Assembly (NCBI RefSeq): GCF_000006405.1
Contig: NW_003207513.1
Location: 56,256-100,816, forward strand
Reading direction: 5' to 3'
From: Perkinsus marinus ATCC 50983
Taxonomy: Eukaryota; Perkinsozoa; Perkinsida; Perkinsidae
DNA: 44,561 nt
Part shown: positions 1,176-29,600 of the stretch, piece by piece
Numbering within the stretch: the first letter of the stretch is position 1
How the letters are laid out: each line of letters opens with the position of its first letter
Notes under the pieces: model-generated
What the model was told of the DNA's origin: nothing
Databases searched by the model: none
What the model saw: the letters and a program-made list of their open reading frames with translations, nothing else
Translations under genes and position numbers: made by a program

Positions 1176-1195
1176 TCAAAGTCTTTGATTCAAAG
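1176..1195. repeat. Triple-arm palindromic element, X = TCAAAG
   Basis: The sequence reads TCAAAG T CTTTGA T TCAAAG: a hexamer, one base, its exact reverse complement, one base, then the hexamer again. Both overlapping odd palindromes have arms of 7 nt. It lies in DNA with no recognised gene. It has the same architecture as nine other perfect copies in the window, each with a different hexamer. Function is unknown. Confidence 0.85.
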
Positions 1196-1937
1196 ATGGC
1201 AACCGATATAATGTCGGGTCGTATAACGTCGTGTATAGGCTAAGGTTTATTGAGATGTAATTGACTTCGGCATTCGGAAGATGTGTTAATCACGTCTCAT
1301 TTGTATGATACATCATCCTCATGGTGGTCGCTGTGGGGCTTACTTCGCCTGTTTGTATCAGTTTCAACTCGTTCACGCGCTTGGCTGGTCTCGATACTAC
1401 TGGGTCATCTCAATAAGGTATCTACGGTTGCTCAATCCTGTTTCGAAGGTATCTCTCATTCCAACTTTGTACAGTTTAAGACTATTTCCGATTCATGAGT
1501 AATCTGATGTTCATTGATCCCTATGATAGAGTTCAGAAGATTTCATTCAATCAACGAAACTCAATTGTCCGGGGTAAAGATAGGATATCAACATGGTTTC
1601 TTTAGCTGCGTTATATCGAATGTCCCCTATGCGTAAATCGACTCCGTTCGGCCACAATCAACTAGTTATCTTCGCTTTTTCACTGTGCGGCTCGGCTTGT
1701 GCGAAGTAGACAGACAGAAATAATATATCTATCTGGTATATGGTAATCTATAATATTGTAATATCACAAGCAGGTTACCTTAGTAACACCCGTGAACTGT
1801 ATTGGTCTCAGTAGGCAGTCATTGACTGGCTACCATACCCTCATGGAGCAACCTCAGGAAGTGGTTAGAAGTAGGAGCTTTGCTCTCTACTTGAAGGGAG
1901 ATCGAAGCTCTGGTCGAGCAGTGGGAGAGTTAGTTAC

Positions 1938-1957
1938 TTCTGACTCAGAAGTTCTGA
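1938..1957. repeat. Triple-arm palindromic element, X = TTCTGA
   Basis: The sequence reads TTCTGA C TCAGAA G TTCTGA. The left odd palindrome extends to 8-nt arms (1936-1952) and the right one to 7-nt arms. Another stem, AGCGGTG / CACCGCT (7 bp), follows within about 30 nt. The element is intergenic and of unknown function. Confidence 0.9.
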
Positions 1958-2049
1958 GCGGTGGCGATCCGAGCTTCACGTAGCACCGCTGTGTTACATC
2001 TTCCTTGAATCCCTAAATGAATATCTCGTCACGATCGGTACCTTGTAGG

Positions 2050-2069
2050 TTGGTACTACCAACTTGGTA
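2050..2069. repeat. Triple-arm palindromic element, X = TTGGTA
   Basis: The sequence reads TTGGTA C TACCAA C TTGGTA. Both odd palindromes extend to 7-nt arms. A further element with an unrelated hexamer begins only 17 nt downstream, so elements can lie nearly in tandem without sharing sequence. Confidence 0.9.
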
Positions 2070-2086
2070 GTGGACTGGAGACGATC

Positions 2087-2106
2087 CGCATCTGATGCGG
2101 CGCATC
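2087..2106. repeat. Triple-arm palindromic element, X = CGCATC
   Basis: The sequence reads CGCATC T GATGCG G CGCATC. Both odd palindromes extend to 7-nt arms. It lies 17 nt after the TTGGTA element. The architecture is identical and the sequence is unrelated. Confidence 0.9.
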
Positions 2107-2404
2107 AATGAAGTTGCTCTTTTGGATACGGGCGCAGGGATATTCTCAGTCTCTAAGCAATGCAGCGACGCGCTAGAAAAGAATATTCTGGAAGTAGCCT
2201 CTGCAAATGCCAGGACGAAAGGTGCCTGTACATCACGAACCTCAACACGATGTGCTCGCTGTACATTTGATTGTGCCTACAGGACATTCGTCCCCTCCTT
2301 GAAATTGGACTTAACCCCCTCCGGTGATGTCATTTTACTCATCAATGGAATGCGCGGAATTGAAGGTGCCTGCTCCCTCGACATTGCAACTAGGCAGGGA
2401 CTAC

Positions 2405-2424
2405 TTCGACGGTCGAAGTTCGAC
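2405..2424. repeat. Triple-arm palindromic element, X = TTCGAC
   Basis: The sequence reads TTCGAC G GTCGAA G TTCGAC. The left odd palindrome extends to 8-nt arms (2403-2419). A 12-nt even palindrome built on GTCGAC lies about 15 nt downstream. Confidence 0.9.
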
Positions 2425-2598
2425 GGGAAAAGGGCGGTATGGTCGACCATCCCGTCTTGATGTTGGCAGTGATGAAGCACATAGTGGAGCGAAACGTCAG
2501 TGTGGATTAACTCCCCTGTGAGAGTAAATCTACTGTAGACCATCCTGCCAACTCGACACCAGTAGATTAACTCGGTTCACTAAGTTATATCGGACATC

Positions 2599-3141
2599 TT
2601 AAGACGATATTTTCCTTTTGAATAGTTCTTCAACTTCCATCTTTCTCAGCGACATCCAGTCATCGTCGTCATCAGCTTGCTCGTCGTTTTCTTCCGTATC
2701 CGGATCATCCTCAGCAGGTCTGAGCGTCTGTGGTACCATCTCACTCTCTTCCGTACCGGCAAATTGCTCGCCCATCGTCATTGCTTCATGACAAAGGAAT
2801 TTCACTAAAGCTTTCGTCTGTCGCATACCCTTGATGTGATTCTTTGCTCGTGTAAGCTTATTGAAGGTCATCACCGAGGCCTGACAGGCGGCGTGGTCTC
2901 GTTGAGGCTTCTTGGATAGCTTAGGGGTCGGTAGTGTCGATAGTTCGAGCATATCACTGAGCTTGCTTCTGAAAAGTTCTCTTCTATTCAAACGTAGTAC
3001 ATCGACTCACCCATCGTTCGCGTTGAAGATGAGCATTTTTCGTATTTTCCCTTCTGTTTTCCTCTTGCAAATGAGAGATTTTATACTGAGTTGCTCTACA
3101 AAGTCGAAGATCACGGTCCCCTCGCTCGAGGATGATACCAT
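2599..3141 (-). CDS. Unknown protein with acidic C-terminal region
   Basis: I read two exons: 3141-3011 from ATG, then 2983-2599. They are joined over a 27-nt GT-AG intron (2984-3010, GTGAGT at the donor, TACTAC inside, TAG at the end). The frame is preserved (131 nt, then 385 nt including the stop), giving 171 residues. Visible features are a basic N-terminal third (CKRKTEGKIRK), a lysine-rich middle, and an acidic stretch with EENDEQADDDDD before a basic C-terminus (LFKRKISS). No signal peptide or membrane segment is seen. I do not recognise the family. The alternating acidic and basic composition would suit a nuclear or nucleolar protein, but that is inference. The ATG was chosen because it is the first in the open exon. 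Confidence 0.55.
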
Positions 3142-3692
3142 GCACTCAGTCGGGCTCGCCCCTCCCTTGAGTCTCTGTACTGTCTAAGGCAAAAACCAAT
3201 ACCACACCTCCCCGACATCATTACTGTTACCAGCCCTAGGAAAGCCCAGCTATGGTGGAGACAGAGAAGGGATGTGATGAGTATTCGCATAGTAACTCAG
3301 TGAGCTGCGCAACCATGAAGAGACGCCAACAGTTAACGGGCGTCTCCGATGGGCGGCCGAAATTGCCGTCTACAGTAGTCAGCACTCCATCAGTCAGACT
3401 GTGGTTGTGCAGTCTTTCGTAGTTTGTTACTCTGATTCACGCTGGAACGCGAAATTGAAATGGGTCTGATAACGACTCATGGGAAGCGGTTCTCCACGTG
3501 GACCATTGAGAATTCCTCAATGAGAAGTGTGACACACTGGTGCATTCGGCAACCTTCTCACTCAGCCTCTTAGAAAGTCTGACTGATTCGATCGTTCTCA
3601 TTGTGCACCCCCTATCTCTCATATTTCATTGGATCCTGGTTCATTCATCAACCTACACAGCCAACAGATCTGTCCTCATATATTGATTGAAC
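3142..3692. other. Intergenic stretch with small hairpins
   Basis: I see no supported gene. Two local inverted repeats stand out: GAGACGCC / GGCGTCTC (3320-3327 and 3339-3346, 11-nt loop) and CATTGAG / CTCAATG (3504-3510 and 3516-3522, 5-nt loop). There is also an odd palindrome AGTGTG A CACACT at 3526-3538. They fit the general excess of small inverted repeats in the left part of the window. Confidence 0.5.
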
Positions 3693-3764
3693 GGTTCTGT
3701 GGCGCAATGGTAGCGCATCTAACTCTAGATCAGAAGGTTGTCCGTTCGAATCGGGCTGGGGTCA
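3693..3764 (+). tRNA. tRNA-Trp-like gene with CTA anticodon (possible suppressor or pseudogene)
   Basis: The 72 nt fit a complete cloverleaf: D-stem GCGC/GCGC (3702-3705, 3713-3716), T-stem GTCCG/CGGGC with loop TTCGAAT (3745-3751), and discriminator A at 3764. From knowledge of the family, the arms and variable loop match eukaryotic tRNA-Trp closely. The anticodon position (3725-3727) reads CTA, where tRNA-Trp has CCA, so as written it would pair with UAG. Six of the seven acceptor pairs are or include G-U wobbles except G-C at the end and C-G in the middle, and the anticodon stem has an A-C mismatch (3721 against 3731). All these look like transitions from a normal tRNA-Trp. No T-run terminator follows closely. 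Because most genes here end in TAG, an inactive, transition-decayed copy is the more likely reading. Confidence 0.7.
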
Positions 3765-4651
3765 TAGTTGTGATAATTTCACCCGATTAATACCAATTAG
3801 CAGGCCCCTGTGACGAATATTGGCACCACAGCATCAGCGATTGTAACAGAAGGGATTAATATGCAGCTCGCTAAAGACGTATGCCATAAAATCTTCACAC
3901 AACCCTCACATTGCACACCCCTATTTGGGTCGACGAAATTTCATCCAATGATTGTGCAATCCACCCACAATCTATTTTTTTCATGGACTTCTCTCTGCAA
4001 CTCTGACTCTACCCATATACTCCCAACGTGAATCAAACACAAACGCATAACCACTTTGCTCTTCGTGGAAATAATGAATTTGCTCAACAAATGCAGTTTC
4101 GCTAAATTGGTCACCGAGTGAATGGTGTCGATTCGTTCGCTTATCGGGTTGAAAGTTACACATTTGCCAGGGAGGGGAGGCTTAACCCAGCTTCTTCGAC
4201 GGTCCCCTGCTATCTTTCAAATCATCAAACCAACTCGTTAATAACTTGTCTCCTGAAATGTCCCATGGAAATCTACGCCCACCCTTGAGCCTTGTAGCCA
4301 ACGTTTATTCGTTATAAACGACCATGCTTCGTGTGTAGCTTCTGCTCGTCTATTTCGCGCCTTCCTGCTTGTATCTTACACAGTGGGAATGCTATCTTAC
4401 TTTAGCCATGAGACTCACAGACTGTGAGTCACAGTGGCACAGGCTGAGGGCAGCAGGGCAATATTCTATACTGACTACTTCTAAGAATATGTACTTCTGT
4501 TGGACAATAGCCCGGAAATAATCGGGGATGATTAACTAACGCGAACAGCAAGGCAAAAATCAGATTGAAACCACGTAATCCCAACAGAGTGGTGACCAAC
4601 ACTCACACGAGGTGCGTATGATAGTAGTTCGAATCAGAGTTAATCACTGCT
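3765..4651. other. Intergenic stretch downstream of PA2G4
   Basis: I find no convincing coding sequence. Apart from the element at 4415-4434, I see an inverted repeat CGTTTAT / ATAAACG (5-nt loop, about 4302-4320) and ATATTCT / AGAATAT around 4461-4490. The 3' UTR of PA2G4 must lie in the right-hand part. Confidence 0.5.
4415..4434. repeat. Triple-arm palindromic element, X = TCACAG
   Basis: The sequence reads TCACAG A CTGTGA G TCACAG. The left odd palindrome extends to 9-nt arms (4412-4430) and the right to 7-nt arms. It lies 3' of PA2G4, 218 nt beyond the stop codon. Confidence 0.9.
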
Positions 4652-6195
4652 CTACTGCGTAGTGGCCGCGGCTTTCTTCGACTTCTTCTTGTTCTTCTTA
4701 GGGTTGGCGCTTTGTGCCAGCAAGGCCTTCAACTCCTCGTTTTTGACACTTTTATCCGTCTCGAATTGAGCTGAGAAGTTCCATAAAAACAACTTTAAAA
4801 CGAAGACTCTGTTACCAGCAGAAGTGAACGGGAGCCCCGCGACCTTCTTAGTTCCACCGGGGAGGAGGAGAACAGTGAACTTGAACTGAGCTACGATCTC
4901 ACCGGGCTTCTCACAGAGGACCTGCTCACATACCACTCCTCCGTCACATCACGATCCTCAGCTTACAGGGTATTCATGCAGGAGCTCATGCTTGAGCGCC
5001 TCTTGAACTCCGTATCTAGCTCCGGTAATGTCCTTGAAATCAGCGAGAGAGAACGCCCCACTGGGGAACCTCCGATCGACTTCAGTGAGGAACTGTCGCC
5101 CACGAGCGAGTTTGAGAGTCTAAAAATGATAATAATAACAGTGGGAGTTTATACCGTAACCTACGTAATTCCTGCCGGGGGCTCGACGGTAAACCGTAGT
5201 GCGCCTGTCGGCCGAAGGACGGGCCTTACCCTCTCCTGATGACATAAGAATATCAAGACAGTACCTGTAAGGAAGTTCGAGGCTTTCAAGGAGGAGTGGT
5301 ATTCCTACACCTCGTTAAGACCAAAAACAAACTCGGGCACCTTGAGGTCCTCTGTGAACTTGGAAGCGATCGCCTGACGTGTTTATATAGTAAAGGAACA
5401 TAACCGGTGGGCGTACGTTTTCTCCCTCAATATTGTGCTTTTCCAGTTGGTGGCTGAGGACACCTCTGATGGGCTGAACGCCAAACTCGTCGGCGACTTG
5501 TTGCATCAAGTTCGTGATGTCAGTGTTGGTGTTACCTGATATAGGCTCAAAACGGGCACAGCGAAGAGTATCTTTCTTACCAAGTTTGACTTTCCTGAGG
5601 ACGGCCTCAGCGGCAGTATGAGCGGCCATGACGGTGTCAGCGGCCTTGCCGGTTGCCTTGGCATCACCAGCGATTACAGTGTTAGCCGCAGCAGTGATAA
5701 AACCGTCAATTTGAACGGCAAGATCGACCTAAGATACTTTTCGTGCCCCAGCGAGGGTCCACGGATGAGGTCCACCTTGACGATATCCCCTTCCTTGATG
5801 GTGATGGATTCCCCCTGCAGTGGGCTGAAATGGCCGGCGACTTCGTTGATGCTGATGCACGTCGGGAAGGCGATCCCCTTGGGAACTACAGCACCCTTAA
5901 CCTGACCTCATCCGTATCTTATACCGTCAACCTAAAGATTCCCCTCACCTTTTTATTGTATAACTTTCCCGTTTGTTCCTCGATGAAGTCATCACCGAGC
6001 CTACAAAGATCATAAACATCAGCCCCCGGCTTCACAGCAGCCAAGACGAGCTCAAGGGCCTTGTTGGTGATACCTAGAAGGACGTATGCAGTGGAAGACC
6101 GGAATGATGTTGTTACCGGCTGCGGCAATGTACTTAGTGGTAACATCAGGATTAGAAAGATCAGTCACCTCGTCTTCGTATTCAGAGTCGGACAT
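4652..6195 (-). CDS. PA2G4: PA2G4/EBP1-like protein (proliferation-associated 2G4 homologue)
   Basis: The product belongs to the methionine-aminopeptidase-fold family that includes EBP1. Known members are non-peptidase proteins that bind ribosomes and RNA in the cytoplasm and nucleolus. Ten exons join in frame: 6195-6117, 6073-5949, 5901-5776, 5728-5581, 5535-5405, 5373-5309, 5264-5165, 5119-4967, 4921-4816 and 4770-4652, giving 383 residues against about 394 in animals. Diagnostic strings in order are [72 protein letters not shown] and [12 protein letters not shown], with a lysine-rich tail as in EBP1. The nine introns are 31-48 nt. The last (4771-4815) is 45 nt, has no stop in frame and could be retained without breaking the protein. 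The gene is divergent from the gene at 6368. The ATG at 6195 gives the usual acidic N-terminus. Confidence 0.95.
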
Positions 6196-6367
6196 GCTTT
6201 AACTTAGTAAGGGCTTCCTGATGCGATGATGTGATTATCTGCGTATTTTCCGCCGCCTGGTGAGTGAAGACGACGGCTAATTACCATATAGATCAACTGG
6301 GCGCGCGCCTTAATAGTTTGTACTTTTCGGTGAAAGCCGTCTCCAGTAATTGTTGGTAAAATCTTCC
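6196..6367. promoter_or_regulatory. Divergent intergenic region
   Basis: The 172 nt separate the start codons of PA2G4 (-) and the secreted-protein gene (+), so both 5' UTRs and both promoters must lie here. I see no TATA box or other motif I can name. A GCGCGCGC run occurs near 6301-6308. The call rests only on gene layout. Confidence 0.5.
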
Positions 6368-6997
6368 ATGATCAAGTCCTTAGTAGTCGCTGCGGAAATC
6401 ACCAGTTTGGTCAGCGCGACGCTCACGGTAAGGAACGGACCTCATTCGGGCCTATTCTGTATCTTTGTGCGTCAACCTAAGATATTTCTCTTCAGGTGAG
6501 CCGTTGCCAATATAGCCCCCATGAGTCCGATGACGGTAAATGCTGTTGTGTGAGATCCACTAATCGCCGCTATCGCGGGACTGAAGTTCAGCTTTGCCTC
6601 GACGGCGACGACGGACTTCCCTCATTCAAATGGGCTAAGTGCCCTGTGAAAGAGGATGGAAAACTCATTAGGGGTGAATTTACGAGCGAGTGAGAAGTTT
6701 ATGCAACCATCCCATTACCAAATATATTTTTTCAGAGACGTTCGCGTCCCTCGTGAGGTTTATGAGAAGTTCTTTTCGGGATGGAGCCCCAGGGCCGACA
6801 CACTTGCCTCGTGTAAATCAGCCTTCCGCAGCTTTCAGAGGAACGCTGTCGGGCGTACGTGGGGAACAGCCAGTCGCAGAGTCGTCGATAACGTGTGCTC
6901 AATGATCGATGCCTACGAGGAGAAAGCGGCTACCCCCAAGACCAATCCAACTCAGAAAGCTACCAAATTCGACCAGTTCGATGAATTCAACCGTTAG
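6368..6997 (+). CDS. Small putative secreted Cys-containing protein
   Basis: Three exons (6368-6427, 6496-6689, 6736-6997) join in frame to 171 residues, with introns of 68 and 46 nt and consensus ends. The N-terminus MIKSLVVAAEITSLVSATLT is a plausible signal peptide, followed by a cysteine cluster (KCCCVRS) in the first half and a charged, Cys-poor second half ending in TAG. I recognise no domain. The first intron shares words with two introns of the neighbouring PA2G4 gene (see findings). The gene at 7074 also encodes a signal-peptide protein in the same orientation, so the pair may be co-acquired or co-regulated, but their sequences are not obviously related. Confidence 0.75.
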
Positions 6998-7073
6998 AAA
7001 CGTGATGTGAGCAACATGTCGTGATGTAGATGTCTGTTATTGTATCCGTCCGGCTTGTGTTCACTATGAGGGG

Positions 7074-7947
7074 ATGAGGTTCAGCAGTTGTATGTTGGCC
7101 TTGGTTCTTTTACTAAACCTGTTGATAGCTGCGTTGGCCCGTCGCAGACTGGGTAGTTCGAAACGGGGTCTAGCACTTGGCCGATTGACGAACTCGGTTA
7201 CTAAGCGTGTGCGAAGGTCAAGCGAAGAGAAGGGAAAATATCGCCCGAACGTTCAGGTAGGTTCGAACTCGGATCGTGGGCATGACAGCCAACCCTACTA
7301 ATCAGTTTAGTTTTAGGCTAAATCTGTTGACGATAAGGGTGCATTCCTCGATATCTGCTATATAGCACCGAGGAAGGGAGAGGCGGAGAACCAAAGATGG
7401 GGAGTCTTGTTTGAGAGTAACGAGGATAAGTACCTCATACCCCTTTGGGCCGAGTGTAACAATAATCGACATTTAGAAGGAGCAATGTAAGTTCTCCGCG
7501 GATCGACCCTGGGTCTTCCGAGTGTTAGTGAGAAGTATTATCCAATTACACTATGCTGATTTTAGAGACGCTGGTCGGTTTGACTCCACCGGTAGTCACG
7601 TCGCTAATGGTGGGGGATATATCGAGCGTATTATGAAAGATGACGAAAGACGCAATGAGCGCGTTGGCTGCTCTACGAAGTTGAACCGTTTGTTCACGAA
7701 GTTGATGGAAACGAGTAAAGAATTCAGTGAAACTGTGTACGCGAATAGCAATCTCCGGAGGAAGAAGAGCGACAGACTACTGCTAATCACTGAGTTCTGC
7801 AAGTACTCTCGCAACATCGACTCCGCCTTGGGCCCACCAGACCTGACTGCTAAGTTCATTGGGGATCGAGGCACTCCGGAGGCATACTCTGGAGGTGGTG
7901 AAGATGGTGATTATGAGGACGAGGAAGAGGAAGAGGAGGAGGAGTGA
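7074..7947 (+). CDS. Putative secreted protein with polyglutamate C-terminus
   Basis: Three exons (7074-7256, 7317-7486, 7566-7947) join in frame to 244 residues. Introns are 60 and 79 nt. The first holds a CTAAT branch-like motif just before two candidate acceptors, and only the second acceptor keeps the frame open. The N-terminus MRFSSCMLALVLLLNLLIAA is a clear signal peptide, followed by a basic segment (RRRLGSSKRG). The middle has scattered cysteines, and the end is a run of about twelve acidic residues (EDEEEEEEEE) before TGA. I know no matching family. It lies 76 nt downstream of another putative secreted protein. Confidence 0.75.
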
Positions 7948-8077
7948 AAATTAGCATAAATGATCGAAACATGTGAGATACCATAAGCGCTGTTGTTGTT
8001 TGTTGTGATGACATTCTTCTGTTGAGTTTCCAAGTCTAGTATTCTGAGTAGTTAGGCGGTTGCTATGAGCTCCCTCG

Positions 8078-8773
8078 ATGGGACCACCAGGAGACGTGGA
8101 GATACCCCTAAAGTACCACTCATGAGCAAACGATGTCTCCTTCTTTGACCCCTATTCAGCTTCGATCGTCGGCGTATCGGCCGTTGGCGGTACTGGCGGA
8201 TCCGATCTTCCTCGAGAAGCGACAGTGAGTTGGCTACAACGTCCGTGGTACAGCGTCTCGTCAGGCACAGGGAGATGAATCGGCTGTGGAGGGACATTGT
8301 CAGAAAGGCTCGGCAAGAGAAAGCAGCCCAGGACTCTTCAAGGGAGTTCGGCTTTGGTGCTATGACAAGCGACGCAGTAGGGGAAGACATCCTTGGGAAT
8401 AGGGTTGGTTGGGTCCTCGAGAGGGCCTTGAAGAGCAGACTCAATCAGGTGGTGACTACAGGGAGCAGTATGGACGTGCTGGACTCCCTACCGCACCTGG
8501 GCTGCCCGGAGGCTTCCCCCGCTCCCAGTTCCTCGGAGGGCTCCATCGATGGTCGTTCCCTCCAAGCCGGGGACGTCAGCGATCCTGGTGGGTTTACTGT
8601 GGACAGTGTCGGAGATCGGCAATCACTTTATAGGTGTTCAATGCTCTCGTCCTCGGTTGTTCACTCCTGAGCGTCGACGTAAGACAACTGTTGTCCCCGG
8701 GGTTTCTGCATACAAGTCCTTCAGGCAGCCTATCTCCGGTGAAGCTTCAAAAGCGGCCACGGACAGCGAGTAG
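8078..8773 (+). CDS. Unknown arginine- and serine-rich protein
   Basis: Three exons (8078-8112, 8160-8587, 8634-8773) join in frame to 200 residues, with introns of 47 and 46 nt. A different ATG at 8065 is in the wrong phase for the first splice, so the ATG at 8078 was chosen. The product has a basic N-terminal third (FDRRRIGRWRYWRIR), a predicted helical middle (HREMNRLWRDIVRKARQEK), a Ser/Pro-rich stretch and a C-terminal ERRRK patch. No signal peptide or known domain is seen. Function is not inferable. Confidence 0.6.
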
Positions 8774-9990
8774 GACTCCGGGCTCTCGAGCCGCTGAGAG
8801 AGTCGAGCGGCGAAGGGCATCTCTTAGGGTGGGTTGGGGGACGGTTTGTGAGATGAAGTTGTTGGTATGCAGTCCCCTGGGTTATCCCTGGGCCTGCGGG
8901 ATTATTGCGAGACCCCTGAGGAAAACTGGGGGAGCGCGATGACGGGGCCTTCTGGTGAGCTCTGCCGCCTCTAGAGTCGATCGATAGTTCGATTCAGAGT
9001 CTACCGCTCAACCGGAAAATATCTTTTCGGCTACTGGTGAACCTCTGAGTAGCATCTTCATGTCACCACCAAAGCCAACAGGAGGAGGAGGAGGAGGAGG
9101 GAGTGGCTTGCTGGATGGCATCGATGGTGAAAAAGAGCATCATCATCAGCCGATACGCCGTCGTGGCGGAAGATGTTAGTCGATGCCTGATAGAGTTGTG
9201 TTACCGATGAGATTGGGTATGGGCTTTTTATGTGGTCATTCAAGGAAAGATCGAAGTGTGCAGTAGACTTGTTAAAACGACATGAGACGTTCGTGAACTG
9301 CTCGAAGGCAGAAAGCAGTTGTGTATACAATAAACAGAGAGAATGCGTGTTTGATGGCATTTAATCGAGAGGTCGAGATTGTACCTCGTTAACCAGACAT
9401 GCCATTTATATAACAGTATGGTCTAGTGGTATGGCGCTCGCTCAAAGAGCAAAAGGAGTCGAGTTCCATCCGTGGTGCAGCCATCGAGTTAGCGAGTTGA
9501 CACACGAGCACATATGTGAAGATTGACGAGATTCACGTGACACTTTCAACATGGATAGTATAAAGACATTTTATGCTCCACGTTACACCGTGCGCGATAC
9601 CACAGGGCTGTAACTACACCACTTATTCTTCAAACTTCTCTTATGGCAACAATCACAGAGCGAAGCCCTAGTCGCCATGTAACTTCATGTGCTCGCTCGT
9701 TATGTTGCACGATAATGGTGCTGCAAATCGAGGAGCACGTATATGTTAGAATTCTGCTGGGCGAGCGAGATTTGCGCTAGTCGACGAGATTTGAAAAATC
9801 GTGGTTGAACGCAAGTACGCGACGTAAGATGATAGAAGCGTGAATGAGCTTCCGCGTGCGGAGTTGGGTTTTTTACCTTCGTGTGGTTGTTGTATAAGGC
9901 TCGGGTGAGGTGCAGCGTTATGGTCGTGGAGCTGTCGTTGTAGGGTTATACCAGATCAAGTACTTGGTACTTTAACGCCTGTCCAACCCA
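8774..9990. other. Intergenic stretch with a GGA-repeat tract
   Basis: I find no supported gene. A GGA trinucleotide run (about six units) occurs at 9081-9099. At 9417-9487 there is a tRNA-like D-arm followed by sequence that does not fold (see rejected items). Just before the Alba gene, near 9956-9970, is CAAGTACTTG, an even palindrome overlapping AAGTAC-TTG-GTACTT. Confidence 0.45.
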
Positions 9991-10860
9991 ATGGTAGCTG
10001 GCACCACTTATCGTCGCGTTGAGAAGCATACCGAGAAGACTGAGGTGGGCCCCATCACCTTTTAGGGGGTCTCTGAGGTCACCTTAGGTCGAAGATGGTG
10101 AAGTTCGTATTACCTCTGTCGGTCGAGTTAATAACTTCGTAGATGATGCAATCCATTGGTTCCTCGGTGACGATGATGACCATAAGGCTTGCAAGAGCGT
10201 TAAGATCATGGCCAGAGGTGAACCCTTCCCCACCGTTAGGGGACCCAATCGTGGTCATTCAGGTGTGGCAGTGGCCAAAGCCGTCATTGTGTCGGAAATC
10301 CTCATCCGCCGTGTTCCTGGGCTCAAGCAAGCCGTCGAGCTCGGCAGCAATGACGTCGAGGAGGAGTATGAGCCCGTTGATGATGCTGAGAAGGATCACG
10401 TGGGTCGAAGGGTGTCGCGTTAAGATACACAGTTGGTCAGGTTAAACAAGTCCGTATCGTACCATATCTTGTCAATACCCTAACAGCTACGAAGCCTCTT
10501 ACTAAGGACGACATAAAGCCTGATGAATTCGTCGAGTAATACGACAAGTATTTTGGCTTGCCTTCAGCGCTCCACGATCAGACGCCCTGATCTCGCCGGT
10601 GACGGAGGTCGTCGTAAAGGCGGTGGGAAGGGCCGTGGTGGGAAGGGAAAAGGTGAGGACTTGTCCTTAAGTTATGATAGTAGTGTCTTCTAGGTGGTCG
10701 TGGCGGTCCCCGTAGTGGCGGCGACCGTCCTCGTGGTAAATCGGGCGAGTCTAATAAGAGTAATTCGTAGAAGGATTGCAGTGCATCAATTCACTTAGTT
10801 GTGTCAGATGAGAAGACCAAGGGTGGCAAGAGTGGAGGAGATAATAACGTGGCCGCCTAG
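9991..10860 (+). CDS. Alba-domain protein A with basic Gly-rich tail
   Basis: Alba proteins are small basic DNA/RNA-binding proteins; relatives include the RNase P/MRP subunit Rpp25. I read seven exons: 9991-10044, 10088-10217, 10263-10399, 10441-10535, 10582-10652, 10694-10759 and a last exon from 10799 or 10808 to the TAG at 10860. With the first acceptor this gives about 204 residues. Family signs are EVRITSVGRVNNFVDDAI near the start of the domain and GVAVAKAVIVSEILIRRVPG at its core. The tail after RPDLAGDGG is a Lys/Gly/Arg-rich segment with RGG-like steps (GRGGKGKG, GRGGPRSGGD), typical of RNA-binding tails. The neighbour at 11298 is a clear paralogue, so this is a tandem duplication. 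Two candidate acceptors leave the last exon ambiguous by 9 nt. Confidence 0.88.
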
Positions 10861-15730: not shown

Positions 15731-15793
15731 TACGACTGCTCTAGCAGAAGCAGCTTTTAACCATTACACAAACACCATTAATCTTAGTTCGAG

Positions 15794-18966: not shown

Positions 18967-19251
18967 GTGTAGTGTTGAGAACCACGCTTGCTTTCCTCGG
19001 CTGAGCCCGAGAGTTTTCTCGCTAACTATGGAAGTTTGCATACAAATTAAGATATAAGTGTACGGAAACCAATGATAATTTATTAGAGTTTCCAGGTTGT
19101 CACCGACACATGTAGCTAGTCATGTGCATATTTTTCCACATTGACTAGGTGAGAGACGAAATGTTCTTTAATAGTGATCTCGAGCTATGAGCTCCCGTGA
19201 GGAAAAGTTTTGAGAAGCGTGGAGAAAATAGCAAATTGATGTAATTTTCTT
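18967..19251. other. Short intergenic stretch
   Basis: No gene is seen. A stem CACATG / CATGTG with an 8-nt loop occurs near 19107-19126. The sequence lies between convergent transcripts, so it should hold two 3' ends. Confidence 0.4.
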
Positions 19252-21919: not shown

Positions 21920-22280
21920 GAAGTGGTCGAGTCAGCTGCAGCAACTTTCAAGGAGGAAGGATTGGTCGTATTGAAGGGAGCCTCAGCCGGACTGAGTCTG
22001 GATGAGGCTGAACACGCCATTGAGAAAATAGAAGTGACTTTTCCGAGCTGTTCCCGGGTAAGACTCCATGTCTAAGAGCTCCTTTTCAGGAATTCTCTAA
22101 CCGTGCATTGGAGCGCTATATGTATTATTACTATACGGCTGCGAAGCGAAACAAAACCGATGATGAAGTTTTGGGCCATTTCTATGACGTAAGTGAGCCC
22201 TTGCAACTCTACAACACGCTTAGCTCTCCGGGGAACCCGGTCCGAATTACCCTGTGAGAAGGGGTGGCAGTTGCGCCTAG
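21920..22280 (+). CDS. 3' exons of an unknown helical protein
   Basis: Three exons join in frame: 21920-22057, 22090-22188 and 22224-22280, ending in TAG. Introns are very short, 32 nt (22058-22089) and 35 nt (22189-22223), both GT-AG with pyrimidine-rich 3' ends. The protein reads EVVESAAATFKEEGLVVLKG, then SLDEAEHAIEKIEVTFPSCS, then ALERYMYYYYTAAKRNKTDD, and is mostly helical. The 5' exons upstream of 21920 were not identified, so the model is partial. No family is recognised. Confidence 0.6.
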
Positions 22281-23344
22281 TCGTAAAATCATGACAAATT
22301 CATTGCGGAGTTCATCTTGAAATCTGACCAGCCGTGCATGATGATAAATGCTGCTCCCCATGTACAGATAGGCTTTCGCCATCGAGGTCGTGTAGAAATC
22401 GTTCCGCCGAAGCTCAACACGAATGGATTTCGAGCAAAGCTCAAGCAAAGTGATCCGCTCGAGTCTGATTGTTATTGAATGAAAACTCGAACCCTGCCGT
22501 ACTTGTTGATAGCTACGAAGAGTGTTGGATAAGTGATTTTCAGAACTTCTGTATCGCCTTGTGGACAAACTGTTCGGTGGATCTTTCGTCATGGGTCCGA
22601 TCGTAGGGAAGATTAGTTTTCCAAAGGAGATGTGCGAGGTTGGTCACTGCACGGGTCATCAGATTGGGGTTGAGCTCCCTCTCTAGAGCAAGTGTCGACT
22701 GTGTTCCTTATCACTCACGGGGGAGATGGGCTCTGGTTCTGTTCAGCCTTGGCGGGAATGGGCAGCAGAGTGGCTTGACGGGTTCGATACAATTGTTGAT
22801 AGCCCGCGGCAGCACTGGTTCCGCCGGGAGAAAGGGTTCACCAATTCGGATGACAAGTGGAAAAAATCTGCCATTCTACTCTATCTAGACGAAGATCATC
22901 TCTGTCAGAACCCGAGAGCGCAGAAGAAATCGAGTCAGCGGTGTCATCGTGACGATCCCTTTGCTGGGCTGGAAGGGTGGCGAAGTTGAGTTCATGGCTC
23001 AAAGCCATCGAGATAACATTGCTGGCCAATTTCATGTTTGGCATGCTTCGGAGAATCCGACAAGTGGCAGGTGGTCTCCGGCACTGTGCTGCGACATTAT
23101 ACCCCGAGTGTTGGTCAGCACGCAATTTCATAGCTCAGCCAAGCTACTCCCCACTAGCGAGTCCATAGAGCTGGTTATAGCATCGAACGATTGTCTTCAG
23201 GCGCTTAGTAAACGTTTCTATGAGCATCGGTGATGTCCTATTTACTGATTCGAGACTATTGCACAGACCGACTGTCAACACCCTCTCAACTCCAGTGAGG
23301 GAGCCGACGCTATCCTATTTCAGTCGATGTTCATTCCGCGTTAG
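22281..23344. other. Region with coding-like plus-strand segments, unresolved
   Basis: Between about 22578 and 23100 the plus strand has segments of protein-like composition, for example WREWAAEWLDGFDTIVDSPR followed by QHWFRREKGFTNSDDKWKKS, and later SSWLKAIEITLLANFMFGML. I could not join them with consistent splice phases, nor tell whether they are 5' exons of the gene ending at 24394. Confidence 0.35.
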
Positions 23345-24394
23345 GTGCCAACATTGGAACTGTTCTTTGCGAAATCAGATGCCGCGTTAGAGCGGATCAC
23401 GATGCTTGGCACATCATGGCTAGTAAGACATTTGTGCGGATTCCAGTCACGATGTTCTTGCCTTACTTGTATCAGAATTTTCTGTCTGCTCTTCAATCGC
23501 TAATTCTGACTCAACGATACGTGGTTAAATTCAAATTCGGGCACGAAATTGACAGGAGCCAAGCTGCTCAGTATCTGTGGGCGTAGCATACTGTCTTTCC
23601 CCTCATTTCATTAGGAACTCGAGTGTCCACTGGAAAAAATCTTTCATCTAGCGAACGCATCTGGTGAGATAATCTTGTTCCAATCAGGTCCCCAGAAAGG
23701 AGTACCAACGTGCTGTTGCTGAGCAGGAAGAGCTTGAACGTACCACTGAAGAGGTGTAAGATGAGTTGTAGCATCCTACGAATAGTGTGACTGACGTGGG
23801 ACTCTGGGAGTCTAAATAATGAGACTCTTCCGAGGGCTGGTAGCCCTTGTGACACGGCTACATGGTAACCGTGTCACAATTTATTGTATACCACTTGTCT
23901 CAGCGATCCCATCCCGGACGTCTCTGATGCTCAGTCAGCGGAGGATCCCTCAGCGGTAGATGGATTCGAAGTGAGTGCTCATAGTGGTCCTTGGGTCGTG
24001 GACATTCTATAGGTTGACGGATATGACGCGTACATTTCACGCCAGGAAGAGGCTCTAGGCCAAGTCTATGACGCGGCGAAGCATATCATGTCTGAGGTGG
24101 GCTCATACATGCGGCAACCTCGCTTTGTTACGGTGTCGTCTGTCAGAAACTTGTTGAAGAACGACAGAAGCACTTCGAGCATCTCGCAGAGCTCCAGTTG
24201 ATGAAGGCCGAACAAACAGGCGAGCAGGAGAGAATTCGGTGAGCACTCCGATGGTCGATTGACTGGATAGAGAGCTGAACAGGTTATCGGATGATAGAAT
24301 AAAAGCAATGACAGACTACATTGATCAAGTCATGCGTTCGGAACCTAGCGATCATCACAGTAGGAGAATGCCCTGGTCGCTGTTAATGCTATAG
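23345..24394 (+). CDS. Coiled-coil/helical protein of unknown function
   Basis: The 3' exons are well supported: 23688-23755, 23904-23970, 24013-24096, 24147-24238 and 24271-24394 (TAG), all in phase. Earlier segments 23345-23422 (KSDAALERITMLGTSWL) and 23476 onward (NFLSALQSLILTQRYVVKFK) are probably the preceding exons, but the link to 23688 is not resolved. The product is long-helical: KEYQRAVAEQEELERTTEEV, ISRQEEALGQVYDAAKHIMS, KLVEERQKHFEHLAELQLMK and RIKAMTDYIDQVMRSE. This would suit a BAR-like or structural coiled coil, but that is only a guess. The intron 23756-23903 is 148 nt, about three times its neighbours, and is filled with hairpins. Confidence 0.65.
23847..23879. repeat. 11-bp perfect inverted repeat inside an intron
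   Basis: The arms TTGTGACACGG (23847-23857) and CCGTGTCACAA (23869-23879) are exact reverse complements around an 11-nt loop. A second hairpin, AGGGCT / AGCCCT with loop GGT, abuts its left side. Both lie inside an unusually long (148-nt) intron whose flanking exons are otherwise intact. Confidence 0.9.
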
Positions 24395-24651
24395 ATGGAT
24401 CAGGGTCGGCATTATTCTGTTGAGCAAACTCAGCGTATTCAGGTTCTACAGGCGTCGGTGGCGTTATATAGTGTCTCGATAGTGGAAATGCGTTCATGTA
24501 AGATGCGTGCTTTCTATGATCAGCTGAGGTTTGAGTTAAAGATCAGTTGAGGTAGGTCTGTGGCTGTCTAGTAGCCAGATAACCTTGCCTCACTAAAATC
24601 TGCCAAGCTATTTTTCGAAGATAACTACGTTCACATATGGTCCATAAGATG

Positions 24652-24680
24652 GACTCCATATCTCCATATCATATGGAGTC
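24652..24680. repeat. Compound palindrome with 10-bp arms
   Basis: GACTCCATAT (24652-24661) and ATATGGAGTC (24671-24680) are exact reverse complements. Within them CTCCATAT C ATATGGAG (24662-24678) is an 8-nt-arm odd palindrome. The left half is a direct repeat of TCCATATC with an 8-nt period. The arrangement is X, X, X' rather than X, X', X, and may be a relative of the triple-arm elements. Confidence 0.85.
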
Positions 24681-24855
24681 GAAATCTGTAGACTTGGGAT
24701 CAAGTACTGCGAAATCTAGTATACAGGCTGTTCGTGTACAAACTCCCGCGCTAGAGTGCTCATGCAGCCAGACCCTAACTAGCATGCTCAGCAATGGGAG
24801 GCTTTCTACCTCATTCCAACGATAGTATGTAGAAATACACTACGATCTTAGTGTT

Positions 24856-24880
24856 GTGTGGAATGTCGGGCATTCCACAC
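24856..24880. repeat. 10-bp perfect hairpin
   Basis: GTGTGGAATG and CATTCCACAC are exact reverse complements with loop TCGGG. It is intergenic, downstream of the gene ending at 24394. No T-run follows and no function is apparent. Confidence 0.85.
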
Positions 24881-24960
24881 GGTAAACAAATCGTCAGGCG
24901 TCGGTCTGAGTGAGTTATCGATCGAGTATAAGAATGATTGTCGGACTATCCGAAGGTGTA

Positions 24961-24977
24961 TGACTCACGGTGAGTCA
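24961..24977. repeat. Odd palindrome with 8-nt arms
   Basis: TGACTCAC G GTGAGTCA. A second, shorter odd palindrome (GGTGA G TCACC) overlaps its right half, so it is close to the triple-arm design but with a 5-nt instead of a 7-nt step between centres. Confidence 0.8.
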
Positions 24978-25021
24978 CCTACCTCCAAACGAGTCCTGAT
25001 CACTCAGAAATTCAAATTGCA

Positions 25022-25470
25022 AAACACCGCCGGCCAAACGTTAATTTTCAAACTACTAAATTTTCTTAATCTCGCATTTTCCTCGACCTGATCGAATCTG
25101 ACTCCACCTTAAGTCAGCGTTGCATGTGCTTCCAACTGGTGCTTTAACATCTCCTTTTCGTCGGCTTGATGACGTCGAGTTAGCATGACTTACCTCGCGA
25201 GTCGCGAAGCTCACGGAGCACCTCGTGCCCCTCGGGAGCACATGCTGAAAATTGGTTGGTTCGTTTCTTCCATAAAAAACGAGACTACTGAGAAGGAAAC
25301 GGATGCTTTTCTCAACCAAATCTAAGGCAGAAATGGGAGTGGTGCCAACTATGGTAAGCCCCTGCAAGTGACGACCATCCGAGCTCTGCTATCGGTGCTA
25401 TCTCCGGTACCATCGACGCATCTATGGTGCGGGAGACGATTCCTTAGTTACTCGAAGAGAAACCCGAGGA
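25022..25470. other. Stretch without a supported gene
   Basis: A minus-strand open frame (25056-25367) and plus-strand fragments around 25380-25460 have ambiguous composition. None joins to a recognisable exon. Nothing firm can be annotated here. Confidence 0.35.
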
Positions 25471-25492
25471 AGCTGTCATAGCTCAGCTATGA
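25471..25492. repeat. Degenerate triple-arm element (one G-T wobble)
   Basis: AGCTGT C ATAGCT C AGCTAT: the first arm differs from the third at one base, which still allows G-T pairing with the central arm. The right-hand odd palindrome (25476-25492) is perfect with 8-nt arms, TCATAGCT C AGCTATGA. Confidence 0.7.
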
Positions 25493-25516
25493 AGGCCAGG
25501 CATGAATTCTTGGGTG

Positions 25517-25540
25517 TGTGAGAGGAGCTTGTCTCTCACA
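25517..25540. repeat. 8-bp hairpin
   Basis: TGTGAGAG (25517-25524) and CTCTCACA (25533-25540) are exact reverse complements around an 8-nt loop. Intergenic. It is one of many small inverted repeats between 24.6 and 27.3 kb. Confidence 0.75.
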
Positions 25541-25805
25541 TAGGGCAAGTCCCACTCGTTGAGCACAATAATTCGCGTCATAAAAACTACGTAAATCAGG
25601 AAATTCCCGCGAAGAACCTCTGTTCCCTCCCCTCACAAACATAGCGGTCCTTCTCTAGGTTATACAATCTCAACTTCTTGGAAACGTCGACTTTGAAATC
25701 GATGCCGACATATGCTGTATGGTAATGAGTCTTTCACTACTGGAACAGATGAGTATGCTTCATTGACGATATCAATACCGTCAACCGGGTATTGCCGGCC
25801 AATAA

Positions 25806-25825
25806 CTACCGTCGGTAGTTTACCG
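25806..25825. repeat. Degenerate triple-arm element, X = CTACCG
   Basis: CTACCG T CGGTAG T TTACCG. The third arm differs by a C-to-T transition that keeps a G-T pair. The left odd palindrome is perfect with 8-nt arms (25804-25820). Confidence 0.75.
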
Positions 25826-25865
25826 GCGTTCCTCACACCTTACTATTGTGCGGTTGTGAAAGCTC

Positions 25866-25885
25866 ATTGCAATGCGATGATTGCA
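25866..25885. repeat. Degenerate triple-arm element, X = ATTGCA
   Basis: ATTGCA A TGCGAT G ATTGCA. The outer arms are identical. The central arm has one A-to-G change that keeps G-T wobble pairing with both. Confidence 0.7.
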
Positions 25886-25904
25886 TGATGATAAGGTCCT
25901 GAAG

Positions 25905-25924
25905 TACTGATTTAGTACTACTAA
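25905..25924. repeat. Degenerate triple-arm element, X = TTAGTA (centre)
   Basis: TACTGA T TTAGTA C TACTAA. The third arm is an exact complement of the centre, and the first differs by one transition with wobble. The right odd palindrome has 7-nt arms (25911-25925). Confidence 0.7.
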
Positions 25925-25937
25925 ACCAGGCCCTGAT

Positions 25938-25996
25938 TTACTCAAGGGCTGTTGTATGGAGCTGATTATCAGGGTCATACAACAGCCCCTGAGTGA
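25938..25996. repeat. Long imperfect hairpin (about 20 bp)
   Basis: The 13-nt arm GGGCTGTTGTATG (25946-25958) pairs exactly with CATACAACAGCCC (25976-25988). After one A/C mismatch a further 7 pairs follow (TTACTCA with TGAGTGA, one of them G-T). The 17-nt loop contains CTGAT T ATCAG. It lies directly beside the CGGTTT triple-arm element and about 220 nt upstream of the transposase fragment, so it could be part of that element's end. Confidence 0.85.
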
Positions 25997-25997
25997 C

Positions 25998-26017
25998 CGG
26001 TTTCAAACCGGCGGTTT
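25998..26017. repeat. Triple-arm palindromic element, X = CGGTTT
   Basis: CGGTTT C AAACCG G CGGTTT, perfect. The left odd palindrome has 7-nt arms. It is immediately 3' of the long hairpin and closes a cluster of elements at 25.8-26.0 kb. Confidence 0.9.
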
Positions 26018-26216
26018 GAGCCGGCGGTCAATGACTGCTCACAACATTGTGAGAATGACTCTCCGTGGAGTATGGTATGAAGTGAGTATGGAATAAGGGC
26101 ATACGCAATTCTCGGGGTCAAACCAGGTTGAGAGGCGCTTCTTATACTGTGCTCAGGCGGGTAGGAGTCTCCAACCTGGAGATCACCAACGTTCGCTAAA
26201 CGTTACATTTGCCTAA

Positions 26217-26923
26217 ATGCGCTCAGGTCTACTGGCTGCAGCTCCGGCTCGTTCACAGCACAAGGCCCTCCACCAAGCCTTCACCAACTGCTCTAGTTGC
26301 TTTAACTTCTTATGTCTTAATAATATTCCCGGCCGCTCCATCTCTCCCACTGCATTTCTCGCCAACTCTTCCGAGGAGCCTATCCTTCCGTGGCTTGCGT
26401 GTCATGGTCTTCTCGACACTACCGCGACCTGTGCTACTTGCGGGGAGCCCAAACGCTTTTACAACAAACGCTCTCAAACCGGTTTGTATCTCTGGTACTT
26501 CCGTTGTGGTTCCCGCCGTTGTGGTTCACGCCGTTGTGGGAAGACTTCCATGTCCTGTCGCTCCGGTATTTGGGCTCAGACATCCACTGCGTTCCGAAAG
26601 ATGCTCGCTGCCTTCATCGCCATCGTCCTCGGCGATCCCGTTGCCAATGTTGTCCGTAACTGTGGCGTTTCTAAGAAGACTGTGACATCATTTGCTGGAT
26701 TGGCCGGTGAAACTTGCAACCTCTCCAACTCTACTGATCGGCGATCAGTGATCGCCAACACCACTCCTACGACTACGTTCAGTTAGATGAGACCGCTTTC
26801 GGCCGGCGCAAGTACCATCGCGGTAGACGCCAACGCCAGTCTGGCTCCTTGTGGGTTCAGACTGTCGCTGGTATAGATCCTGAGAATGGAAAGGATGGAT
26901 ACCTGATTTATGGGTACCCATAA
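26217..26923 (+). pseudogene. IS1595/Merlin-like (ISXO2 domain) transposase, disrupted
   Basis: The open frame from 26217 has a cysteine-containing region (CATCGEPKRFYNKR, later WYFRCGSRRCG) that recalls the zinc-ribbon N-terminus of IS1595/Merlin transposases. A helix-turn-helix-like part follows (NVVRNCGVSKKTVTSFAGLA). The frame then breaks, and a second frame (26756-26923) continues with YVQLDETAFGRRKYHRGRRQ and SLWVQTVAGIDPENGK, matching the start of the ISXO2 catalytic domain, where the D of DET is the first catalytic acid. A stop follows at 26921, and I could not find the rest of the catalytic domain. The break coincides exactly with the 20-nt triple-arm element at 26735-26754. Terminal inverted repeats were not identified. 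The copy is dead as written. Confidence 0.75.
26735..26754. repeat. Triple-arm palindromic element inside the transposase, X = TGATCG
   Basis: TGATCG G CGATCA G TGATCG, perfect. The left odd palindrome has 6-nt arms and the right one 8-nt arms (26740-26756). It sits between the two frames of the transposase. Deleting either the 20-nt element or one 14-nt repeat unit restores a continuous frame. This is the clearest sign that the structure arises by insertion or local expansion. Confidence 0.92.
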
Positions 26924-26940
26924 AGCGATCTCAGATCGCT
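26924..26940. repeat. Odd palindrome with 8-nt arms at the transposase break
   Basis: AGCGATCT C AGATCGCT begins directly after the stop codon that ends the second transposase frame. No third arm is present. It may mark a second disruption of the same element. Confidence 0.85.
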
Positions 26941-27163
26941 AAACCTCTCTGGCGCGGGTACATGTATAATCAATAGACTACGATTTAGATATCAGTGATG
27001 GATTTATCTTTCATATTGTCGGTTTCATTGTCACATCCGACATCTGTTACGTTATTAAGATGTGGCCAAGATATTCTTGTATAACTCCATCTCGAGTGCC
27101 GTCGAATACCGAAGAGGAGTGCTTGTGGACCTCGTTTCTTCTCGATCTCCAATCTGTCTTGAT

Positions 27164-27183
27164 CGCCACAGTGGCGACGCCAC
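27164..27183. repeat. Triple-arm palindromic element, X = CGCCAC
   Basis: CGCCAC A GTGGCG A CGCCAC, perfect. It is followed 10 nt later by a larger odd palindrome using the same arms (27194-27212), so two related structures stand side by side. Confidence 0.9.
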
Positions 27184-27193
27184 TAAGTGCGCC

Positions 27194-27212
27194 GAAGTGG
27201 CGACGCCACTTC
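27194..27212. repeat. Odd palindrome with 9-nt arms
   Basis: GAAGTGGCG A CGCCACTTC. The core (GTGGCG A CGCCAC) repeats the arms of the triple-arm element 10 nt upstream. Outer CGCCG / CGGCG segments add further pairing. Confidence 0.85.
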
Positions 27213-27842
27213 CGGCGATCGAGGCGATTCATCACACTCATTCTATATTCGTTTATAGTGATGCATAGAATGATCCAAATACTGGTACTGACAGTCTAGA
27301 TAACACCAGACTGAGTTGGATGGCTCCGATTCCTAGACCGACTTGTGCAAGCTCTACGATAGATTCGAGCTCGCGTGAGCAGTTTCCGTTGTTGGGTACT
27401 AACGCAATTTGAAATCTTGGACTTTTGAGAAGCAACAGTACTTAGTTTACGACGGGAAGATCAACATCAAGAAATGCGGGTAGTAATAACAGAGTTGGCT
27501 TGTTGCCAATGAATTTGCTGAACAGGAGGATAACCACAATCATCTACAGAACTGATTGTTTACAGCCATCACAATATCGGTATCATAAAGCAATAACAGC
27601 AGTTCCAGCTTTCCTATCCACTGATGCTAGAGTTCCACTTGAGAGCTCCTGTTGGGGCTGCATTGTATCTCGTACATGTCTCTCTGTTGCCGAAGTATCA
27701 TCAGTGTCAGCATTGCCAGACAGTGGGAGGCTCGCTGCGGCATCAAGAGTGTCCCCATTACCAGCTGCGACGAGGAGGCTCTGCCCATCATCTCTCGCAC
27801 TAGAAGTTACATGATGGAGTGCATCAGGTCGGATCATTCGAC
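27213..27842. other. Intergenic stretch between transposase remnant and RING gene
   Basis: No supported exon. CATTCTAT / ATAGAATG (8 bp, about 27238-27271) forms a further inverted repeat. Degenerate transposon sequence may continue into this stretch, but I cannot show it. Confidence 0.4.
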
Positions 27843-28844
27843 CTAAGATATTATCAATTCACAACAGTAACCGGGCGTTCCTCTACTACCCAAATATTCC
27901 GCCTCCTCCTTCCTTTGGTCCTCCTCGTGATCTGAGGTAGCTGTTATAACTGCCTCCGATTTCGACCATTTTTGATTCATCTCGGCCCTGCCAATAGAAG
28001 TCTCACCCTCAAATGGCCATGACTGACCGCCAAATATTATTACAACATGGTGAACTCCTCTCGACAAATGTAGCATGTCTTCCCTGCTAGCACCAAATCC
28101 TTGGCACATCCCTGGCATAGGCCACCGTGCCCACAAGGGAGCAATATCTGAGGAAGTAACATAGATCTCGTGCTATGTAATATAACTTACGATGGTGGCG
28201 GGATTCTCCATACAGATTTTGCAAGTACCATCATCGTCATCTACAGCTAGATCCGACAACTCCAATGACCCACGCGTGGTGGGAACCTGAGTCTGAGGAA
28301 TCGGTACCGAACCGGTGAGATGCATCAATTACTGTTTCGACATTCCCGCTGCTATTGACCTTGAAAAACGTCGATGTAACTCTGAAACCAGAACCACCCC
28401 ACTGAATACCAATCACTGTAGAATATTATATAACCTTTTGATCTCGAACATCTGTGATTTTGCGCGCTCCATAGCCTTGAGACGGTTCTCAGATCGAACC
28501 GCATCGTCAGCAGTTCTTGGCGGCTCCTGGGACCAGCTCACTCGCGTAATCGATCATGAAAGCTACTATACTACCTCCAACCTCTCAGACGCATACGGAT
28601 CATAAAGTGTGGACTCAATGTCGGTTGTTGAGATATTACGAAAGTCAGTGTGGTGTCTATCGCGGAGATCGGGGAATGCTCTTGCCACACAGTCACGGCA
28701 AACGAAGTACTGTGCATTTGGCATCAGTTCCGGAGGAACTCGCCTGGCAAAGAGTCATCTCCAATTACTACTCTACTATTCCCATTATTACCTGCTTCTG
28801 CCACAGACTTGACAATTGACTCGATCGGTACTGGGGGAGCACAT
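27843..28844 (-). CDS. RING-finger protein with N-terminal zinc-binding motif
   Basis: Probably an E3 ubiquitin ligase, by family. Seven exons join in frame (28844-28792, 28743-28575, 28526-28435, 28381-28287, 28246-28191, 28147-28047, 27987-27843) to 236 residues. Introns are 40-59 nt. The C3HC4 RING reads CKICMENPATIILLPCGHGG then LCQGCAKDLVLAGKTCYICR: four paired Cys/His ligand positions are present, with the intron inside the RING at phase 0. N-terminally a second metal site CQVCGRSRRVPPELMPNAQY then FVCRDC has two CxxC pairs about 22 residues apart. Between them lies a charged helix (SENRLKAMERAKSQMFEIK). The tail is Glu/Lys-rich. The first ATG giving the CxxC motif was chosen, although the frame stays open upstream. 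The combination with a CxxC...CxxC module is not one I can name. Confidence 0.85.
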
Positions 28845-28980
28845 GCCCGATGACACTCCCTTGAACCAGTGGATCAGTGGACTCCAAATATTACTGCACG
28901 ACGTTTTGGTGCTGTTATAAAAAATAATAGAGAAAGAGGGTCGGAAGGACTAGCAGAGAAATAGGACTCGCGAAGATTAT

Positions 28981-28997
28981 TTATTGATGATCAATAA
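28981..28997. repeat. Odd palindrome with 8-nt arms
   Basis: TTATTGAT G ATCAATAA, perfect. The following ATGATT resembles a diverged third arm but needs an indel to fit. Confidence 0.8.
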
Positions 28998-29548
28998 TGA
29001 TTCTTATGTGTCTATATCCATTGGGAGTAAGCTAACCTTCAAGGGCGTCAATACCAACGTCATGGCATTCAATGTGAATGTTGAAGTATGTGTTATCGAC
29101 ACCTCTCACCGGTAACTGCTCGATTCATGCAAAGCTTACATTGCGAACTCTCTCACGAGTAAGACGAGTCTTCCCTCTTAGCTAACCTCATTGTCATGAT
29201 GTCATGAGAGAAGTCGGTAGCGATGACTTGTATGGAAGCCAGGTTCGAACCCTGCCATCGTTATTTTTCCGTAATGTAGAACAGCTGTAGAACACGTGTT
29301 GTTGTAGAGAACATCCTCGGCTGTGTCTAGGAGGCTGTAAATCAAGGTTGACTTGTTAACCTAAGTTAAATACCGATGCGGATGGTCGCGTCGCTTCGCT
29401 AGCAACTCGTAATGCGGTAATGAAACCGTGGGGCGAGTGGACCCCCCGTGGCTGCTGAACAGCGCAGAGTAGCCGAGGGCAGAGAGGGCCTATACATTTT
29501 ATCCCAATCCCAGCACTACAGGGAGCAGGTACCGAAGAGGGTGCAGAC

Positions 29549-29568
29549 ACGCACAGTGCGTGACGCAC
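29549..29568. repeat. Triple-arm palindromic element, X = ACGCAC
   Basis: ACGCAC A GTGCGT G ACGCAC, perfect. A degenerate element begins 12 nt later (29581). These are the rightmost copies in the window. Confidence 0.9.
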
Positions 29569-29580
29569 GCACTATCGACA

Positions 29581-29600
29581 CACTCACTGAGTGTTGCTCA
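29581..29600. repeat. Degenerate triple-arm element, X = CACTCA
   Basis: CACTCA C TGAGTG T TGCTCA. The third arm differs at two positions, both compatible with G-T pairing to the centre. The left odd palindrome has 7-nt arms. Confidence 0.65.

Follow-up and report, generated by a model that had tools for sequence, protein, structure and literature searches.

The window analysed here, a stretch of 44,561 nucleotides (nt) of Perkinsus marinus ATCC 50983 (positions 56256 to 100816 of contig C175, NW_003207513.1, in an assembly of 54,459,702 bases and 347 contigs), contains a series of short three-part inverted repeats that are very probably excision footprints of cut-and-paste transposons of the hAT superfamily. 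Scars of this kind are known, but the form seen here is unusual and strikingly uniform, and it is abundant in the part of the genome examined. A preliminary description of the window had reported them as 6 nt, 1 nt, the reverse complement of the 6 nt, 1 nt and the same 6 nt again; this observation was confirmed as real, and all ten perfect 20-nt copies were recovered at the positions given for them. When hexamer arms were tallied in the window over 81 combinations of spacers (0 to 8 nt each), spacers of 1 and 1 gave 10 copies, two other combinations gave one copy each, and the remaining 78 gave none. The fixed geometry stood, but an 8-mer, not a hexamer, underlies the true unit, which is 22 nt long and not 20 nt, since the outer bases are complementary in 8 of the 10 hexamer copies and one base off in the other two (2404 and 29548). 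With the 8-mer written as T (t1 to t8), the unit reads t1-t7, the reverse complement of T, and t2-t8, which makes it 14 nt longer than T. The window holds eight perfect 22-nt forms, six with one mismatch and eight with two mismatches (copies of this last kind may arise by chance), compared with means of 0, 0 and 0.33 in 30 dinucleotide-Markov shuffles of the window. A fixed architecture in the form of an inverted triplication, without a fixed sequence and far beyond chance, was thus borne out, and the five copies previously explained by G-T-compatible changes belong to the set as members with one or two mismatches and are best read as decayed.

Approximately 0.3 Mb of the 54.5 Mb was examined for scars. 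In 277,746 bases, with three near-duplicate loci excluded, the number of perfect units for T of 6, 7, 8, 9 and 10 nt was 1, 1, 47, 0 and 0, respectively; with the near-duplicate loci included there were 50 perfect units of length 8, versus none in three order-2 Markov controls. T is unrelated between sites, the 51 distinct perfect sites having no common sequence, which argues against a micro-element or miniature inverted-repeat transposable element (MITE) as the repeated unit, as such an element would carry shared sequence. Of the mechanisms put forward in the preliminary description (a double template switch, a micro-element, or a site for a dimeric protein), each fits the data less well than transposon excision.

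As a check, it had been proposed that related loci be compared to see whether the additional nucleotides are either all present or all absent. Scars were reduced to one T and aligned against all DNA examined, and the loci were then read. The 14 nt were found to be present or absent en bloc relative to a single T in at least four examples among the alignments listed, all of them paralogous cases in which the empty copies carry a single T. L013:90 (GTACCATC) and L013:1771 (CTATGGAC) are scarred and the matching copies in L015 have a single T, a pair of cases in which the direction of change may have been either gain or loss. L015:1183 (GCCGGAAA) is scarred, as is L013 with one mismatch, and L066, L067 and L068 all have a single T. 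L037:241 (TGCAGTGG) is scarred, and its paralog in the window and all seven of the seven further repeat copies printed are empty, these counterparts being diverged and differing from T at a few bases. Since the empty state is the common one at L015:1183 and L037:241, gain of the 14 nt is likelier than loss at these two loci. In L044 one scar is nested in another, and L041 has its own scar close to the position of the window scar at 29548, indicating that such events have occurred repeatedly. An artefact of assembly or chance, in favour of which no point was found, is exceedingly improbable as a source of the units, given that shuffled sequences give none and that units lie on many contigs and in repeats in differing states.

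We infer the following order of steps, with annealing through the reverse complement of T. An element would insert and create an 8-bp target-site duplication, T. During excision the transposase would make a nick in the flank, at a distance of one base from the element, and would join the 3' end to the other strand to give a hairpin-closed flank, the joined base being complementary to the last base of T. A nuclease of the host would then open each hairpin far from its tip, usually past the 8 bases of T, leaving a 3' overhang that carries the reverse complement of T at the left end and the complementary strand at the right end. The overhangs would anneal over these 8 bases, flaps would be trimmed or gaps filled, and ligation would produce the 22-nt unit; joining of the overhangs without annealing would instead leave a longer scar, in which two odd palindromes have T in common. 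Under such a model the earlier objection, that a loop of 1 nt is too short to close a hairpin, has no force, because the hAT hairpin is a DNA end sealed covalently, with an odd central base complementary to the element-adjacent base. This hAT rule, by which the palindrome on either side is centred on the complement of the element-adjacent base, holds in the 8 of 10 hexamer copies mentioned above and, independently, in a longer class of scar. The statement that no described class has this form was too strong, as palindromic hAT footprints have been published and the same centre rule is stated for those of Ac/Ds (PMC5873905).

Palindromes in the DNA examined bear out the odd centre. With arms of at least 7 nt, spacer-1 palindromes numbered 214 versus 16 in one control, and no excess was found for even spacers (17 observed and 19 in the control for spacer 0; 15 and 15 for spacer 2); with arms of at least 9 nt, there were 34 spacer-1 palindromes versus 1 in the control. 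Palindromes with spacers of 3 and 5 were likewise in excess, as expected where the bases adjoining the centre have changed. The longer class consists of two odd palindromes that flank a short insert and share one 8-mer; with arms of at least 3 nt it was found 10 times (some pairs coming from one tandem array, L014) versus 0, 0 and 0 in the controls, and it was absent at length 9. In eight cases, hand-picked with scattered mismatches allowed and from a search biased to longer arms, the left tracts were 9, 9, 5, 19, 8, 7, 13 and 11 nt long and the right tracts 14, 13, 24, 11, 10, 8, 16 and 14 nt, 14 of the 16 tracts being 8 nt or longer. Read through the proposed mechanism, these lengths appear to show that the hairpins were opened roughly 5 to 24 nt from the apex and mostly at or beyond 8 nt, which would leave two overhangs complementary over the reverse complement of T, as the 22-nt product requires. 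It is conceivable, although we consider it rather doubtful, that the transposase or a partner fixes the point of opening at the outer edge of the duplication or past it, so that annealing of the reverse complement of T repairs almost all imprecise excisions; repair would then be programmed, with a single outcome.

A double template switch, or a polymerase-theta snap-back, during replication or repair could also write an inverted triplication without any transposon. In its favour, the units have this form and occur at unrelated sequences, and their 14 nt are gained or lost together. Template switches are not known to have a fixed copy length, however, and here only length 8 stands out; the offset of 1 nt at either centre, like the long scars with one 8-mer at both ends, is expected from the hairpin ends of a target duplication and not from a switch. 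We regard an origin by template switching as highly unlikely.

Candidate sources of hAT footprints are present in the genome. The hAT dimerisation domain gave 14 matches, two of which (L003 and L004) were confirmed by hmmscan. L004 (on C108, L004:258-1989) contains an element of 1,716 bp whose ends are TATAGATGGGC and which is flanked by an 8-bp duplication, GTGTTGAA; elsewhere on this contig a paralogous stretch lacks the element and carries a single GTGTTGAA. The element of L004 splits a frame that, by eye, resembles a RING finger. The end motif TATAGATGGGC occurs at least 103 times, versus 18 times for the reversed motif, and among the matches listed 21 pairs of end motifs face each other, 15 of which are 466 to 500 bp long and make up a MITE family. 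Ten MITEs were read at both ends: the duplication agreed at 8 of 8 positions in six, at 7 of 8 in three (two being one duplicated locus) and at just 5 of 8 in one, the MITE at C69:573109-573583 (L077, L078). Joined MITE flanks identified an empty site for one MITE at C251:229281-229352. It is to elements of this superfamily that we infer the scars should be assigned. A repeat with the hAT dimerisation domain in L008, L009 and L010 (with L062-L064) is found on three contigs with 100% identity over 2,398 bp and the same end point, and for these reasons was copied recently. As a source of scars this repeat was set aside, as the shared stretch extends past the DNA examined and its other end is undefined.

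The footprints might instead stem from a transposase outside the hAT superfamily that makes 8-bp duplications and flank hairpins, such as that of Merlin, Zisupton or an undescribed group. We judge this very unlikely, since the centre rule is the known hAT rule and since the genome contains hAT elements and MITEs that have 8-bp duplications; we also know of no flank hairpin for Merlin or Zisupton. On the other side, no scar was tied to a named element here, and one study reports relatives of Merlin in P. marinus and duplications of 8 to 9 bp made by Merlin elsewhere (PMC8101967).

The Merlin report also counts against an assignment to hAT transposons, and so do several results of our own. The varied, mostly short footprints that are usual for hAT elements, although not defining, did not stand out: short forms were counted at 0 to 8 extra nt per side, and among those with 0 to 4 extra nt, compared across lengths 6 to 10, length 8 did not clearly exceed lengths 7 and 9, the form with no extra nucleotide set apart. 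That form (517 versus 57 in the control) is uninterpretable because it is identical to a tandem hexamer and inseparable from ordinary tandem repeats, and 8-bp tandem pairs numbered 19 versus 5.3 in the control. Known hAT footprints are varied and mostly short, with 28 kinds among 128 in Candida (PMC5873905). At length 7 the longer class occurred five times, versus 1, 0 and 2 in the controls. A paired filled and scarred locus was sought in the paralog and joined-flank comparisons and none was found, the joined flanks giving empty sites only; for the L015 element, a far end with a matching duplication was not found in the locus comparison. Scar numbers extrapolate to thousands versus about a hundred end motifs seen. 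A lack of end-joining genes was considered as the cause of the single product and rejected: Ku gave two matches, one of them above the cut-off although its aligned stretch contains stops, and a gene for an SNM1-type nuclease is present, so that simple absence of Ku or SNM1 is not the reason. An SNM1-type protein of the assembly shows 100% identity over 98% to P. marinus ATCC 50983.

Perfect 22-nt units are unevenly distributed over the DNA examined. Eight were found in the window, 20 in C12 (140 kb), none in the rest of C175 (56 kb), none in C1 (10 kb), 22 in fourteen hAT-domain loci (43 kb, including three largely identical copies) and 16 in paralog pieces (12 kb). Units of length 9 were absent from all six sets, and one unit of length 7 was found in each of the hAT-domain loci and the paralog pieces and none in the other sets. 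The window, the rest of C175, C12 and C1 together gave 28 perfect units in 250,816 bases, which by extrapolation would be about 6,000 scars genome-wide, from a sample that is less than 0.5% of the genome, non-random and clumped. Counting scars with up to one mismatch, density ranged from 0 to 9 per 10 kb, again with clumping. These scars avoid long open reading frames, with 13 of 45 in frames of at least 100 amino acids (25.9 expected), 1 of 45 in frames of at least 150 (16.7 expected) and 0 of 45 in frames of at least 200 (14.1 expected); a scar adds 14 nt and so causes a frameshift in coding sequence. Such avoidance also bears on the idea that the units are functional, either as paired sites for a dimeric protein or as an RNA element. 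The strict geometry would suit a functional site, but the 51 distinct sites share no sequence beyond an apparent weak target bias, the units are missing from paralogs, and decayed copies are common, leaving next to no likelihood for this explanation.

In the window, where no strand is assigned to any scar, perfect 22-nt scars lie at 1175..1196 (T = ATCAAAGA), 1937..1958 (CTTCTGAG), 2049..2070 (GTTGGTAG), 2086..2107 (CCGCATCA), 4414..4435 (CTCACAGT), 25997..26018 (CCGGTTTG) and 26734..26755 (CTGATCGC). In a composite scar at 27163..27210, a perfect 22-nt scar (27163-27184, T = TCGCCACT) is separated by 11 nt from a second odd palindrome (centre 27203) that has the same T. Scars with one mismatch are found at 2404..2425 and 29548..29569, the latter within a repeat family whose paralog L041 was scarred separately about 10 nt away. 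Decayed scars lie at 25470..25491 and 25805..25826 (two mismatches each), at 25865..25886 and 25904..25925 (one mismatch each), and at 29580..29601, which has two mismatches and is perfect in paralogs such as L036:340. Two further scar-like sequences have one mismatch each: 24640..24661, which was missing from the initial list, and 34253..34274. With the latter, and with two-mismatch copies at 34408 and 42321, the claim that none lies right of 30 kb is not quite correct. The region from 29340 to 29688 belongs to a repeat family of about 350 bp, present on many contigs, partly tandem and rich in scars. A tRNA-like gene with a CTA anticodon, labelled Pyl by ARAGORN, is located at 3693-3764 on the plus strand; it resembles eukaryotic tRNA-Trp, has dozens of related copies elsewhere in the genome, partly in arrays, and might represent either a pseudogene or a suppressor tRNA. 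On the minus strand, a long frame at 31767-33971 has a glycosyltransferase family 61 domain and is related to Perkinsus proteins; among the relatives listed, those with a species name are of P. olseni and P. chesapeaki, and none is named as P. marinus.

The excision of a transposon ordinarily leaves little that can be recognised unless the element is known. The scars described here are recognisable by architecture alone and need no sequence query, so that past excisions can be counted and mapped and their age judged from decay, and the same scan is applicable to any genome with hAT elements. The dominant product and the longer class would report the position of hairpin opening and the mode of end joining. 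If excision repair is programmed for a single outcome and is not messy end joining, thousands of scars would record its history; to our knowledge, such repair has been little studied in the Perkinsus branch of life.

Among known systems, the P nucleotides of V(D)J recombination are similar, as palindromic additions arise there when the hairpins at coding ends are opened off-centre. Unlike the scars here, RAG hairpins are not known to carry a 1-nt offset or to involve a target duplication, and therefore would lack complementary overhangs. Template-switch mutations are similar in making inverted local copies, but are not known to have either the fixed length or the 8-mer common to both ends that are seen in the scars. 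No description of a full-length, single 22-nt product was found among the open-licence papers listed in searches on footprints and on Perkinsus. Ac/Ds in plants, yeast and Candida resembles the Perkinsus case in its palindromic insertions, which have the complement of the element-adjacent base at their centre, its hairpin intermediates and its joining by microhomology (PMC5873905, PMC1978519). The outcomes given there for Ac/Ds are varied and mostly short (PMC5873905), whereas in Perkinsus one full-length product dominates and there is no clear excess of short ones. TcBuster, an animal hAT element assayed in human cells, leaves small insertions complementary to the flank, which that work reads as hairpin opening and then end joining; these are insertions of a few nucleotides with some deletions (PMC3499496), whereas in Perkinsus the gain is fixed at 14 nt.

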